From Salsipaludibacter albus (GTDB lineage Bacteria > Actinomycetota > Nitriliruptoria > Nitriliruptorales > Nitriliruptoraceae), in the NCBI RefSeq assembly GCF_019798055.1, contig NZ_JAHOPH010000032.1, forward strand, positions 1-42,650: 42,650 bases of DNA, read 5' to 3'. The position numbers and the translations under genes were made by a program. Below the pieces are notes generated by a model that was not told the origin of the DNA, searched no databases, and saw only the letters and a list, made by a program, of their open reading frames with translations. Below, in pieces: positions 29,291-42,650 of this stretch. The first letter of the stretch is position 1; every line of letters begins with the position of its first letter.

Positions 29291-29435
29291 GCTGTGGCTG
29301 GCATGCCTCGATCCGCGCATGCCATGGGGCAGGCGCGGGCGAGGCCAGGGGGAACGTGGTCGGATCAGGGTCGGTCGAGGCGGCGGCCACGATCACCGGG
29401 GGAGGTGACGGCACCGGGGCCAGGTGTCGGCGGGA

Positions 29436-30920
29436 TCAGGGGGCCCGGGTAGCGGGCGGGTCCTTGCCCGTGCGTGATGGAGGTGGGAGGTGGAAGGGTG
29501 CAGGCTGGTGGACCTGGTATCCGGACGCGGGGACGGTCCAGGTGCGGGACCCGTCGGGGTGGCGGTCGAGCCGCCACTGCTTGCGGGTCTTGCGGGTGTG
29601 GGCCCGTCGCGACACCAGTCCGAGGTTGCCGACGTCGGTCGGACCTTCCGGCCACGGGACGACGTGGTCGACGTCGCACAACCGCGCCGCAGTGGTCGAC
29701 GCAGGAGCAGTGTCGTGGAGGTCGCGCGCGATCACGGCGTCGCGCAGCCACCCGGGCGGCACCTTCGTGCGGTGTCCGACCCCGACCACCTGGCCGACGT
29801 CGTCGACTGCGACGAGCCGGGTCGCGGCGCCGTCGGCCACCCAGCGGCGTGCGACGTCGGAGGTGACCTTCATCCGTCCGGCCAGCTTCGTCAGCACCCA
29901 CGCCGGCGTGGTCCCGTCGATGAGGCTGTCGACATGGCACGTCAGCGTCACCGACGGCACCCGCCGCCCCCGCCCGGACGTGTCGTCGTCGACGTGGAGC
30001 GGTTCCAGGGTGCCGGCCCGCCTGCCGGTCACCAGCGCGAACAACGCATCGGCCCGCCGACGGCTCCGTGCCGCGTCGAGCGCAGCGGCATGCCGGTGCG
30101 CCTCGGTGAGAGCACGGTCGTCGTGCACCGACGAGCCGTCGTAGCCCTCGGGGGCGTCGGAGTCGTCCGATGCCGTCACAACGTCCAGCGCGCCTTCGTC
30201 GGCATCTTCGTCAGCATCGGCGGCGAGGGTGGCTGCCATGTGGTCGATGGCCTCGACCCAAGGGGTGAAGTGGGTCGGGTCCCAGTCGCCGTTGAACGAT
30301 CCGGACCCGTCCACACGAGGCATGATCCGTGTGCGGTTCGCTGCGACCGGCGTGCGGTCACGCTCCTTCGTGCGTTGCCCGACGAGCTGGTCGGCGAGCC
30401 AGTCAACCTCCCACACCAGGTGGTCAGCCTCCACGTCGGCATGCGACACGGCCCGTTCGGCGACGAGTGCGTCGATGCGGTCACGCCCCGCGACGTCCAC
30501 GGTCCGGGCCGCGGTGACGATCCCTCGAACCTGGCTCCACGACACCTGGCCCTGCACGAACGCGGACCGGACGGCGGGCATGGCGGCGAGCGTGGTCGCG
30601 ACCCGCAGCAGCGTGTTGCGTTCGAACCCGACCTGCCGACACGTCTGCGCCAACACGACCTCGACCGGCACGCCGAGCGTGGTCTCGCACGCGTCGTCCT
30701 CGATCGCGCGGATCAACGTCTCGACCAGGTCGGCCGCGAGCCGGTCGAACCGCCCCGCCGCCTCCACCAACCTGCCCACCTTGGCGGCCTGGCGGCTCCC
30801 GGACCAGTCGACCTCCCTGGCTGCCGACGGCGCCGGCGCCACCCCCTCGGCCACCGGGGCGACGGTGCGTGCCCGACCGGCGGGTCGGGGGTCGGGAGTC
30901 GGGGCGTCGTTCGAGTCCAT
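29436..30920 (-). CDS. DUF222 / HNH endonuclease domain protein
   Basis: A 494-aa protein of the 13E12-like family, spread in many copies through actinobacteria. The N-terminal DUF222 domain covers about 40-330, with AAKVGRLVEAAGRFDRLAAD and VSWSQVRGIVTAARTV. The C-terminal HNH nuclease core reads CDVDHVVPWPEGPTDVGNLG (about 416-435) and ends in RRAHTRKTRKQW. The usual Cys in the second C-x-x-H pair is Ser here (SRRAH), so zinc binding may be lost. The start could be the ATG at 30920, or in-frame ATGs at 30950 and 30959; none has a good ribosome binding site. Mobility is often suspected for this family but not proven, and the tandem repeat array lies just upstream. Confidence 0.85.
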   Translation of the reverse strand: MDSNDAPTPDPRPAGRARTVAPVAEGVAPAPSAAREVDWSGSRQAAKVGRLVEAAGRFDRLAADLVETLIRAIEDDACETTLGVPVEVVLAQTCRQVGFERNTLLRVATTLAAMPAVRSAFVQGQVSWSQVRGIVTAARTVDVAGRDRIDALVAERAVSHADVEADHLVWEVDWLADQLVGQRTKERDRTPVAANRTRIMPRVDGSGSFNGDWDPTHFTPWVEAIDHMAATLAADADEDADEGALDVVTASDDSDAPEGYDGSSVHDDRALTEAHRHAAALDAARSRRRADALFALVTGRRAGTLEPLHVDDDTSGRGRRVPSVTLTCHVDSLIDGTTPAWVLTKLAGRMKVTSDVARRWVADGAATRLVAVDDVGQVVGVGHRTKVPPGWLRDAVIARDLHDTAPASTTAARLCDVDHVVPWPEGPTDVGNLGLVSRRAHTRKTRKQWRLDRHPDGSRTWTVPASGYQVHQPAPFHLPPPSRTGKDPPATRAP

Positions 30921-31518
30921 GTGATGCACCGTAACCCCCTGCTGCGACATCCCGACCATCGAATCCGGCCCCTTGTGGAGAACCGGGAGATCGTCCCAAG
31001 GGCCGGGTCCGCGGATCGCCCGGACCGGCGAAACCGTGGGCCGAGGATCCAGCCCTGCACCGGCCCTCGCGCCCTGGGCCTCCTGCCGGAGGGAGGGACC
31101 GTGCCGACGGACCGGAGCGACTCAAGCGGAGCGCAGTGCGCCCGAACATGGCCCATGGCGAAGACCCTCGCTGCCGGCGGGCGCGCGAGCACCAAGCGGA
31201 GCCCCGGGCCGACGGTGCGGCCCGACCACCGGCCTGACGCCCGCTGCCAGAAGCCCACCCGGGGCCGACGGTGCGGCCCAATTACCGGCCTGACGCCCGC
31301 TGCCCGAAGCCCACGCGACCGCACGGTGCCACCCGAGCACCGGCCCCCAGCCCACCCGGGCTGACGGTGCGGCCCGACCACCGGCCCACAGCCCACCCGG
31401 GCCGACGGTGCGGCCCGACCACCGGCCCACAGCCCACCCGGGCCGACGGTGCGGCCCGACCACCGGACCAATGCCCAGGCGAACCCACCGGCACGCCGAC
31501 AACGCGGCCCCGCCCGAC
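30921..31518. other. Gene-free region with repeats
   Basis: No convincing gene is seen in either strand here, apart from the tandem array at 31203-31477. The left part (about 31010-31200) holds short inverted repeats, for example GGTCCG...CGGACC at 31010-31030. It also has an ACCGTGCCGACGG sequence near 31098 that resembles a degraded array unit. Confidence 0.6.
31203..31477. repeat. Six-unit tandem repeat array (41 and 55-56 bp units)
   Basis: Units lie at 31203-31257 (55 bp), 31258-31313 (56), 31314-31354, 31355-31395, 31396-31436 and 31437-31477 (41 each). Units 4 and 5 differ by one base; units 1 and 2 carry an extra 14-15 bp and unit 3 is degenerate. Each good unit has the core GGGCCGACGGTGCGGCCC, an inverted repeat (GGGCCG/CGGCCC) around ACGGTG, then a shared GACCACCGG and a CCCA end. 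It lies between the DUF222/HNH gene and the 3' end of the 161-aa gene. There are no spacers as in CRISPR. Confidence 0.9.
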
Positions 31519-32004
31519 TCAGTCGCCGAAGAGTGGCAGGCCCGTGTCGGGGGTGATCGGCCCGGGACCCTCCGGGCGGTCGGCAGGCTCGGCCGGCAGG
31601 GCATCCACGACGTGCTGGAGCGGGTGGAGGAACGGCATGGCCGTCGGGTCGAGCTCCTCGGCCTCCACGAAGTCCCCGACCCCGTCGTCCGCCAGCGGCG
31701 CTGCCGTGATGCGCGGGTGCTTCTTGCGCGCCCCGTAGACCGCCACGATCGCGTCGGCGTCCCCGACCTCCCCCTCGGCGAGGAACCCCCAGGCCGGCAC
31801 GCGGTTGGCCTCCAGCTGCTCCTTGGCGAAGGTGGCGAGGTAGGCGTGCCGCGCCTCGTCCTCCTCGGGGAACCCGGCCAGCGTCAGCAACTGGGTCCGC
31901 TCACCACCCGGAACCAGCATGGTCGGGGGGATCGGGCGCTCCTCGCGGCCGGCCAACTCCATGGCTGCCGCGATGCAGAGCTTGCGGAGATCCTCGAACT
32001 GCAC
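31519..32004 (-). CDS. Uncharacterised 161-aa protein
   Basis: Starts at the GTG at 32004, with GAGG about 9 nt upstream, and reads MQFEDLRKLCIAAAMELAGR. It ends in an acidic, proline-rich tail (DTGLPLFGD). The fold looks alpha/beta, with a central VPAWGFLAEGEVGDADAIVAVYGARKKHPR. There is no signal peptide or membrane segment, and no family is recognised. Codon use is normal for the genome. It is 124 bp downstream of the end of ilvD, on the same strand, and its 3' end abuts the tandem repeat array. Confidence 0.75.
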   Translation of the reverse strand: MQFEDLRKLCIAAAMELAGREERPIPPTMLVPGGERTQLLTLAGFPEEDEARHAYLATFAKEQLEANRVPAWGFLAEGEVGDADAIVAVYGARKKHPRITAAPLADDGVGDFVEAEELDPTAMPFLHPLQHVVDALPAEPADRPEGPGPITPDTGLPLFGD

Positions 32005-40369: not shown

Positions 40370-41803
40370 TCAGCAGGCGCGGCTCAGCAGGGGGTAGGGG
40401 TCCACCGGACCGCCACCACCGGGGTGGTACTCGAAGTGCACGTGGTAGACGGTGCCGACGGCGTTGCCGGTCCAGCCGTTGCGCCCGACCTGCTGGCCAG
40501 CCGAGACGTGGGTCCCGTTGCCGACCGAGTGGCTGTCCAGGTGCATGTAGAGGTAGTCGTTGCCGTCGTCGCCGTGCAGGGTGCCCCAGATGCCGGCGCT
40601 GTCGCCGTAGGACTCGCGCTCCCACGTGCCGGACACGATCGCGTAGACCGACTGGCCCTTGGAGCCGACCAGGTCGTTGCCCTGGTGGGAGCGCGTGCCG
40701 CCACCACGGGGCGCGCCCCAGTCGTTGTAGAGGTGGACACCCGACAGGGGGCAGGCCAGGCCGCCGCTGCTGGGGATCGACCCACCGCCACCGCCACCAC
40801 CGGACGAGCCGCCACCACCGGACGAGCCGGAGGACGAGCCCGAGCTGGACGAGGACGACGAGCTGGAACTGGACGAGTCGGAGGAGGACGACGAGCTGGA
40901 GTCGGAGGAGGACGAGCTGGAGCTCGAGGCCTCGTCCTGCTCCTCCTCGGCGGCCGCGGCGGCCGCGGCAGCCTGGGCGGCGGCCTCTTCCTCGGCGGCC
41001 TCGCGTGCGGCGGCCTCGGCGGCTGCCTTGCGACGGGCAGCCTCCTCGGCTGCCTTGCGGGCCGCGATGGCGTCGTTGATCCGCTGGATCTCGGCGCCCA
41101 GGGCGGACTCGTCGTCGGACAGGTTCGCGGCGCGGGACTGCAGACCGGTGCGCAGCTCCTCGGCCTCGTCGAGGTTGGCGTCGACCTCGGCCTTGCGGTC
41201 GTCGGCCTCGGCGCGCAGGTCGGCCAGCAGGCCGTTGCGCTCCTCGAGCTCGGCCGACACGACGTCCAGCCGGGCACGGTCGACCTCGGCCTGTTCGGCG
41301 ACCGAGCGGTCCCCGTCGGCCAGGCGCGTCATCATCGCGGCCCGGTCGATGGCGCCCTCGGCGGTCGTGGACTCGAACAGCTCCATGACCGGGGCCTCGG
41401 GCCCGTTGGTGTACAGCGAGCGGGCCTTCTCGCGGATGCGCTCGCGGGCGGCGCCGACGGTCTCCTGCAACTGCAGGGCCTCCAGCGTCAGGTCCTCGAT
41501 GTCGGCCTCGGTGTGCTCGATCTCGCCCGTGATCGCCGTGAGGCGCTGCTCGGCGACCGCGAGGTCGTCCTCGATCTCGTCGATGCGCGCACGGACGTCC
41601 GACAGGTCGGCGTTGGTCGCGTCGATCGCCGTCCGGGTCTCGGCGAGTTCCTGCCTGGCCTCGGCCAGGTCGTCCTCGTCCTGGGCGGCGGCCAGCGAGG
41701 GCACGCCGACGACCAGTGCGAGGGCGGACAACGCAGCCGCGACCCGACGCACGGTCGGGTTGGCAGGCAGCGTCGGGGGACGTGGAGAAGGTGAGGAGGA
41801 CAT
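40370..41803 (-). CDS. Secreted M23 peptidase with coiled-coil N-terminus (EnvC/NlpD-like)
   Basis: A 477-aa cell-wall hydrolase. A signal peptide (about 15-42, VVGVPSLAAAQ) is followed by a long coiled coil at about 45-300 (LAEARQELAETRTAID onwards), an Ala/Glu-rich stretch, a Ser-rich linker, a Gly-rich linker and the C-terminal LytM domain. Zinc/active residues are in [10 protein letters not shown] (HxxxD), MHLDSHSVG and HVHFEYHP (HxH). Two cysteines flank the domain (LACPLS and SRAC at the very end), suggesting a disulfide. The ATG at 41803 has no ribosome binding site; TACAGT lies 9 nt upstream, so the mRNA may have almost no leader. Coiled-coil M23 proteins usually act in septal wall splitting. 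Confidence 0.93.
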   Translation of the reverse strand: MSSSPSPRPPTLPANPTVRRVAAALSALALVVGVPSLAAAQDEDDLAEARQELAETRTAIDATNADLSDVRARIDEIEDDLAVAEQRLTAITGEIEHTEADIEDLTLEALQLQETVGAARERIREKARSLYTNGPEAPVMELFESTTAEGAIDRAAMMTRLADGDRSVAEQAEVDRARLDVVSAELEERNGLLADLRAEADDRKAEVDANLDEAEELRTGLQSRAANLSDDESALGAEIQRINDAIAARKAAEEAARRKAAAEAAAREAAEEEAAAQAAAAAAAAEEEQDEASSSSSSSSDSSSSSSSDSSSSSSSSSSSSGSSSGSSGGGGSSGGGGGGGSIPSSGGLACPLSGVHLYNDWGAPRGGGTRSHQGNDLVGSKGQSVYAIVSGTWERESYGDSAGIWGTLHGDDGNDYLYMHLDSHSVGNGTHVSAGQQVGRNGWTGNAVGTVYHVHFEYHPGGGGPVDPYPLLSRAC

Positions 41804-41962: not shown

Positions 41963-42650
41963 TCAGCAGATCGGTGACAGGATCGGGTAGGGGTCCACCG
42001 GTCCGCCGCCATTGGGGTGGTACTCGAAGTGGATGTGGTAGACGGTGCCGACCGCGTTGCCGGTCCACCCGTTGTAGGCCACCTTCTGTCCCACCCGGAC
42101 GCGGGCACCGTCCGACACCGCGTGCTCGTCCAGGTGCAGGTACCAGTAGTCGTGGCCGTCGTCGCCGTGCAGGACGGCCCAGACCCCGGCGCTGTTGCCG
42201 TAGGACTTGCGGTCCCAGACACCCGACACGATGGCGAACACGTCCTCGCGGTAGTCGCCGTACAGGTCGTTGCCCTGGTGGGAGCGGGTCCCGCCACCGC
42301 GTGGCCAGCCCCAGTCGTTCCACAGACGCGGGATGGAGTCCATCGGGCAGGCCCGGCCGGACGACGACGGCGGCGGGGGTGGCGGGGGCTCGGGCTCCGG
42401 TTCGGGCTCGGGTTCCGGTGCAGGCTTCGGCTTGGGCTTCGGCTTGGGAGCCGGTTCGGGCTCGGGTTCCGGTTCGGGTTCGGGCTCTGGTTCGGGTTCG
42501 GGCTCCGGTTCGGGCTCGGGCTCGGATTCCGGCTCGGGATCCGGCGCCGAGGATTCCGCGGCCTGTTCGGCTGCCGCGCGTTCAGCCTCCTCGGCGGCCT
42601 CCCGCTCCGCGGCCTCGCGCTCGGCTTCCTCCGCCGCCTCGCGCTCGGCC
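41963..42650 (-). CDS. M23 peptidase with Pro-Glu/Pro-Lys linker, 5' end outside window
   Basis: The C-terminal 228 codons of a second M23 protein; the start lies beyond the right edge. The visible part begins with an Ala/Glu/Arg coiled-coil end ([20 protein letters not shown]), then a PE repeat, a PK repeat, a PE repeat, a Pro run and a Ser-rich joint. The LytM domain follows with [19 protein letters not shown] and HIHFEYHP. It mirrors the adjacent M23 gene closely, including the two bracketing cysteines (RACPM and SPIC), but has a quite different linker. It is a tandem duplicate on the same strand, 159 bp upstream of the first. Confidence 0.92.
42386..42543 (-). repeat. Short tandem repeats encoding Pro-Glu / Pro-Lys linker
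   Basis: Repeated GGTTCGGGCTC/GGTTCC-type hexamers on the plus strand encode EP dipeptides on the minus strand, interrupted by a KP block at about 42425-42448. The copy number is likely variable between strains. Confidence 0.8.

Follow-up and report, generated by a model that had tools for sequence, protein, structure and literature searches.

A conserved noncoding block with a tandem array marks the upstream edge of dispersed HNH-type genes in Salsipaludibacter albus

Contig NZ_JAHOPH010000032.1 of Salsipaludibacter albus, analysed over a stretch of 42,650 nucleotides (the window), carries a tandem array of short dyad units between an HNH-type gene and a conserved gene. An earlier note, made from the sequence alone, had suggested that it might be a protein-binding array, a replication or partition site, a homing target of the HNH protein, or a neutral minisatellite. 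Here we ask what this array is and whether it belongs to its neighbour. To our knowledge, no function is known for DUF222/HNH (REP13E12) genes, which are repeated in actinobacterial genomes and recombine often.

The six units follow each other head to tail without gaps. Self-identity of the array reaches 60-61% at lags 41 and 82, compared with a best value of 49% over all lags in 300 base shuffles, and the unit-core pattern read backwards has no match in the genome, so the array described by the earlier note is real. The dyad GGGCCG-ACGGTG-CGGCCC, said to occur in each unit, is exact in units 1, 2, 5 and 6, but unit 4 departs from it by one change and unit 3 no longer has it. The periods of 41, 55 and 56 bp, none divisible by 3, break any reading frame across the array, which bears out its description as non-coding. 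A CRISPR array was also rejected, because the units are contiguous and have no spacers.

A similarity search of the source genome (4.25 Mb, 79 contigs) with the array and its flank revealed further places on three other contigs. The unit-core pattern matched 11 times in the genome, always inside one of four arrays (of 6, 3, 4 and 3 units), and found no solo unit elsewhere. A close homologue of the HNH gene follows directly downstream of each array. The genome search proposed earlier thus gave a clear answer: all four complete arrays (4/4) stand beside such a homologue. The HNH protein has four near-identical copies outside the window; three of them are complete (C34, C1 and C10, 90-93% amino acid identity), as is the window copy (C26), and the fifth copy (C58, 88%) is at the start of its contig. 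The sequence of this contig starts inside the leader, some 14 bp beyond the block described below, and we infer that the assembler stopped there in the repeat. No array was found upstream of the three more distant HNH relatives in the genome (51-56% identity). At the four complete loci the order is the same: array, conserved block, variable leader, promoter-like segment and gene (Table 1).

Table 1. Features of the locus and sites of the promoter-like motif. Positions refer to the window unless a locus is named.
Feature	Position	Strand	Remark
3' border segment with GGCATGC...GCATGCC inverted repeat	29301..29355	.	Common to C1, C10 and C58
HNH-type protein, divergent DUF222/13E12-like, 494 aa	29439..30920	-	Most likely start 30920
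Conserved promoter-like segment, TTCTCCACA...TGTCGCA-N9-TACGGT, ending at ATG	30921..30982	-	Motif at 30928-30949
Variable leader, 95 bp	30983..31077	-	Three unrelated types in five copies: C26=C58, C1=C10, C34
Conserved noncoding block, 154 bp	31078..31231	.	Includes core of array unit 1; divergence between copies in text; found in sister species
Imperfect dyad inside block	31095-31230		
Tandem array, six units	31202-31477		
Array unit 1 (56 bp)	31202-31257	.	
Array unit 2 (55 bp)	31258-31312	.	
Array unit 3 (41 bp)	31313-31353	.	
Array unit 4 (41 bp)	31354-31394	.	
Array unit 5 (41 bp)	31395-31435	.	
Array unit 6 (42 bp)	31436-31477	.	
Upstream neighbour, conserved protein without Pfam match	31519..32004	-	Co-directional, ends 42 bp before array
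Motif sites, forward strand	L006:3899, L008:4065, L030:115, L090:670, L091:2838, L094:3894	+	
Motif sites, reverse strand	30928-30949 (window), L007:3539, L032:4094, L033:3667, L092:4130	-	

The conserved element is larger than the array: it starts at 31078, and the array extends it outwards. Unit 1 is the unit common to all other loci, and it is part of the block, not a drifted copy. The earlier view that units 1-3 have drifted holds for unit 3 and for the tails of units 1 and 2, which deviate, but not for the core of unit 1, which equals the consensus. Across units, the core GACGGTGCGGCCCGACCACCGG is nearly constant, and the linkers vary in length and letters. We found that the units of the C1 and C10 arrays still hold ACCAAGCGGAGC of the adjoining block, indicating that the duplicated stretch is the best-conserved part of the block. 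Most simply, the 14-15-bp insert seen in some units is the remnant of a longer ancestral unit that repeated ACCAAGCGGAGC. In the window, the insert of units 1 and 2 looks like a decayed version of ACCAAGCGGAGC, and the 41-bp unit looks like a shortened form of the longer one.

We compared the block with the gene behind it. The block differs between copies at 1.3-5.2% of positions (2-8/154), compared with 17-23% at the four-fold sites of the gene (54-69/~300; Fisher P 5e-6 to 6e-11). The edge varies much less than the gene itself, so we take it as a probable functional DNA site, not as a random repeat. The leader behaves differently. It is near-identical within two pairs of copies (81/81 positions for C26/C58 and 95/97 for C1/C10), despite a 22% difference at four-fold sites within these pairs, and the pairing runs against the genes' own relationships. 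Within the coding sequence, the four-fold divergence of C26 and C34 rises from 8% over the first 350 codons to 37% over the remainder (P 6e-9). Such mosaic leaders and coding segments point to gene conversion between copies, and the leader swaps indicate that it was recent. With segments passing between copies, both exchange and selection may account for the low variation of the block within the genome; gene conversion by itself could be enough to keep it uniform there.

The neighbouring gene had been called a DUF222/HNH gene. Its HNH end was supported by profile comparison: hhalign aligned the C-terminal part with the HNH end of DUF222 proteins from Tsukamurella and Georgenia (E 1e-7 and 5e-7; negative control 0.12), and the alignment includes the conserved W...R.DG...W tail. 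The Pfam HNH model remained sub-threshold (15.1 bits, cut-off 21.4; a relative from the sister species G001 scored 20.8 bits). Pfam DUF222 (PF02720) did not match this protein or three relatives even at E 10, while the same library detected DUF222 in two reference proteins used as a positive control. The D-H, N and H residues are present, and the zinc-type cysteines are absent in the whole group. In three relatives (L031, L032, L090) asparagine stands in place of the final histidine of the HNH motif (RRFN/ARWN). An all-helical N-terminal half is predicted with good confidence, which is compatible with DUF222 but is not proof of it. The predicted structure as a whole has low confidence (pLDDT 56) and gave no meaningful PDB or viral-structure match; a defence-system library gave no match either. 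On these comparisons the protein is best called a divergent DUF222/13E12-like HNH protein, and the DUF222/HNH label is plausible but not formally confirmed.

A second conserved noncoding feature adjoins the gene. The motif TGTCRCA-N8-11-TANNNT, followed by ATG within about ten bases, stands directly before 11 HNH/DUF222-like genes in two species and has no other match in the loci scanned. From this conservation, we infer that it is probably the promoter of the HNH gene. Its position directly before the ATG suggests leaderless transcription, which would place the block and array upstream of the promoter and not in an RNA leader. The recurrence of the motif suggests a shared regulator or autoregulation of the HNH genes. 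At the other end of the gene, the inverted repeat of the 3' border is a possible terminator or cassette end.

To date the block, we turned to the sister species G001, one relative of the same genus. It carries a single block-plus-unit copy at the position orthologous to C34: the 3.4 kb upstream are 87.5% identical and include the same metalloprotease and small lipoprotein genes. On both sides of this block the noncoding DNA cannot be aligned, and no HNH gene follows it. Near it are a VOC-like reading frame and an IS110 transposase gene (L049:7335-8714, minus strand, within 1.3 kb), a possible agent of rearrangement there. Over the first 62 bp of the dyad, the two species show 7 differences, compared with 30% at the four-fold sites of the metalloprotease gene (P 0.0015). 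Over the whole block there are 32/137 differences between the species, not significantly below the four-fold sites (P 0.17). At this site, either the gene was lost in G001 or it was gained at a pre-existing block. As the block and unit persist in G001 where the gene is missing, the HNH protein may not be what this site serves.

The other loci are occupied in one species only. In G001, the genes that flank the C1 locus stand about 40 bp apart, and the cassette and a methyltransferase gene are absent. This methyltransferase gene (L007:779-1549), which lies beside the C1 cassette, may be a passenger or a separate insertion. At the C10 locus, G001 keeps the upstream gene with its promoter region and has no array, block or HNH gene; at the C26 locus, the upstream neighbour is conserved and other genes follow. 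Since the downstream sides of three loci are not syntenic, a clean insertion is seen only for C1. Given one block with a single unit in G001, and nothing of it at the other G001 loci, the single unit is ancestral and the arrays grew in the S. albus lineage. The comparison of the two genomes thus shows the block with one unit as older than the split of the species. Four-fold divergence is lower between copies (17-25%) than between the two species (30-46%), so amplification or homogenisation of the copies postdates the split.

Beyond the sister species, other family members gave no convincing match to the block or unit, and a covariance-model search of 100 relatives found nothing beyond G001. 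Collection searches gave no match in viral contigs, plasmids or phages. In a collection of 85,000 genomes, a 20-mer search retrieved only the sister species and one Polyangiaceae contig; the latter was rejected as a relative, as it has no wider similarity there.

Taken together, we give an about even chance to the following reading: the array forms the outer border of a dispersed ~2.2-kb cassette (~29300-31477), in the order array, 154-bp block, variable leader, and promoter with DUF222/13E12-type HNH gene, and the block is a putative cis-acting recognition site whose duplicated core forms the extra units. The protein that binds or cleaves there would be the HNH protein or a host recombination or binding protein. 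Selection and repeated exchange between copies would both keep the block constant, and the extra units would be tandem duplications of its most conserved core, made after the cassette was amplified. No transposase is present in the cassette, and no terminal inverted repeats or target duplications were seen by eye at the cassette ends and the C1 empty site.

The strongest competitor is that the block is functional or historical cassette sequence, from which slippage produced the array as a neutral minisatellite. We consider this a possible but less probable account. Loci differ in how many units they have and in unit length, linkers are free to vary, the C1 array has degenerate outermost units, and the sister species has one unit only, all of which slippage would allow. 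However, arrays grew at all four loci and nowhere else, and the part that was duplicated is the best-conserved core, near-constant while linkers change. Constraint or homogenisation of the block and first unit thus speaks against the minisatellite proposed earlier for these parts; for the extra units it is possible. A transcription terminator or insulator between the upstream gene and the HNH gene is unlikely. It would fit the start of the array ~20-100 bp after a co-directional stop codon in C26, C34, C1 and the sister species, and the perfect 6-bp stem and 6-nt loop formed by most units, but there is no T-run and no terminator call, and a conserved sequence of 154 bp exceeds what a terminator needs. 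At C10, where the neighbour is divergent, a terminator would have no transcript to end.

We regard it as very improbable that the block is a structured noncoding RNA or serves the HNH gene as an RNA leader. The long hairpin is the minimum-energy fold in all copies, and the strand opposite the gene folds better than shuffles in three of them (z -2.2 to -3.6), but the favoured strand differs in the sister species and gene-strand folds with DNA parameters are no better than shuffles. No covariation was found (one pair changed on both sides, equalled by shuffled controls), nor any Rfam match to the region, the only match being a chance sub-threshold one outside it. The promoter-like motif also abuts the ATG and leaves no room for a leader. 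Least credible of all, and hardly to be expected, is that the array acts in replication or partition, or as a phage-type operator, with no tie to the HNH gene. Sites of these kinds typically hold iterated dyads, but here there are four chromosomal copies, each with the same gene, and the other neighbours differ. None of these neighbours was recognised as rep, par or phage, and plasmid, phage and viral contig collections gave no match; the earlier suggestion of a replication or partition site is not supported.

Returning to the cassette, a bolder form of the recognition-site reading is that the block and its repeated core are the putative recognition and cleavage site of the cassette's own HNH protein, with nicking that starts gene conversion. 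We put this forward tentatively and consider it rather unlikely. If true, nicking at the block would explain the uniform block, the exchanged leaders, array growth and cassette spread, and it would offer a working model for the unexplained REP13E12/DUF222-HNH repeats of actinobacteria. A block tied to one REP13E12-like family is in any case concrete DNA for testing binding, cleavage and recombination, and the family-specific promoter motif before 11 genes is a second handle.

The closest known system is REP13E12. In accounts of M. tuberculosis, these repeats carry such genes and are gene-conversion hot spots without a defined function (PMC13061034); they are named as a repetitive class (PMC10589994), and a prophage sits in one of them (PMC9317374). 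In M. avium, REP13E12 copies border rearrangements and flank large polymorphic deletions (PMC2323391). As far as these accounts describe them, the likeness lies in dispersed multi-copy DUF222/HNH-type genes with gene conversion between copies. The genome studied here has several highly similar dispersed copies (the window gene and four at 88-93% amino acid identity), and their leaders and coding segments are mosaic; no prophage stood out beside the copies. In contrast to REP13E12, the Pfam DUF222 model does not recognise the diverged N-terminal part, and a block with a variable array lies upstream of the promoter, a feature unmentioned in the portions of the REP13E12 accounts compared. Relative to those portions, the conserved noncoding block with its expandable array is the new part.

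Like HNH homing endonuclease genes, the cassette has an HNH-type gene at sites that are empty in a relative, and its copies exchange sequence, but no intron or intein is present here. A homing target would be expected in the empty sites. The G001 sites orthologous to C1 and C10 hold no unit or block, while the site orthologous to C34 does hold both without the gene. The array also resembles bacterial minisatellites (VNTRs) in its tandem units of 41-56 bp and variable unit number, and differs from them in that unit 1 lies in a block common to all cassette copies and the sister species. Other tandem repeats are found near the contig end, at 42386-42544 and 40791-41044 of the window (18-bp GGGCTC-type; short repeats of 18-42 bp).
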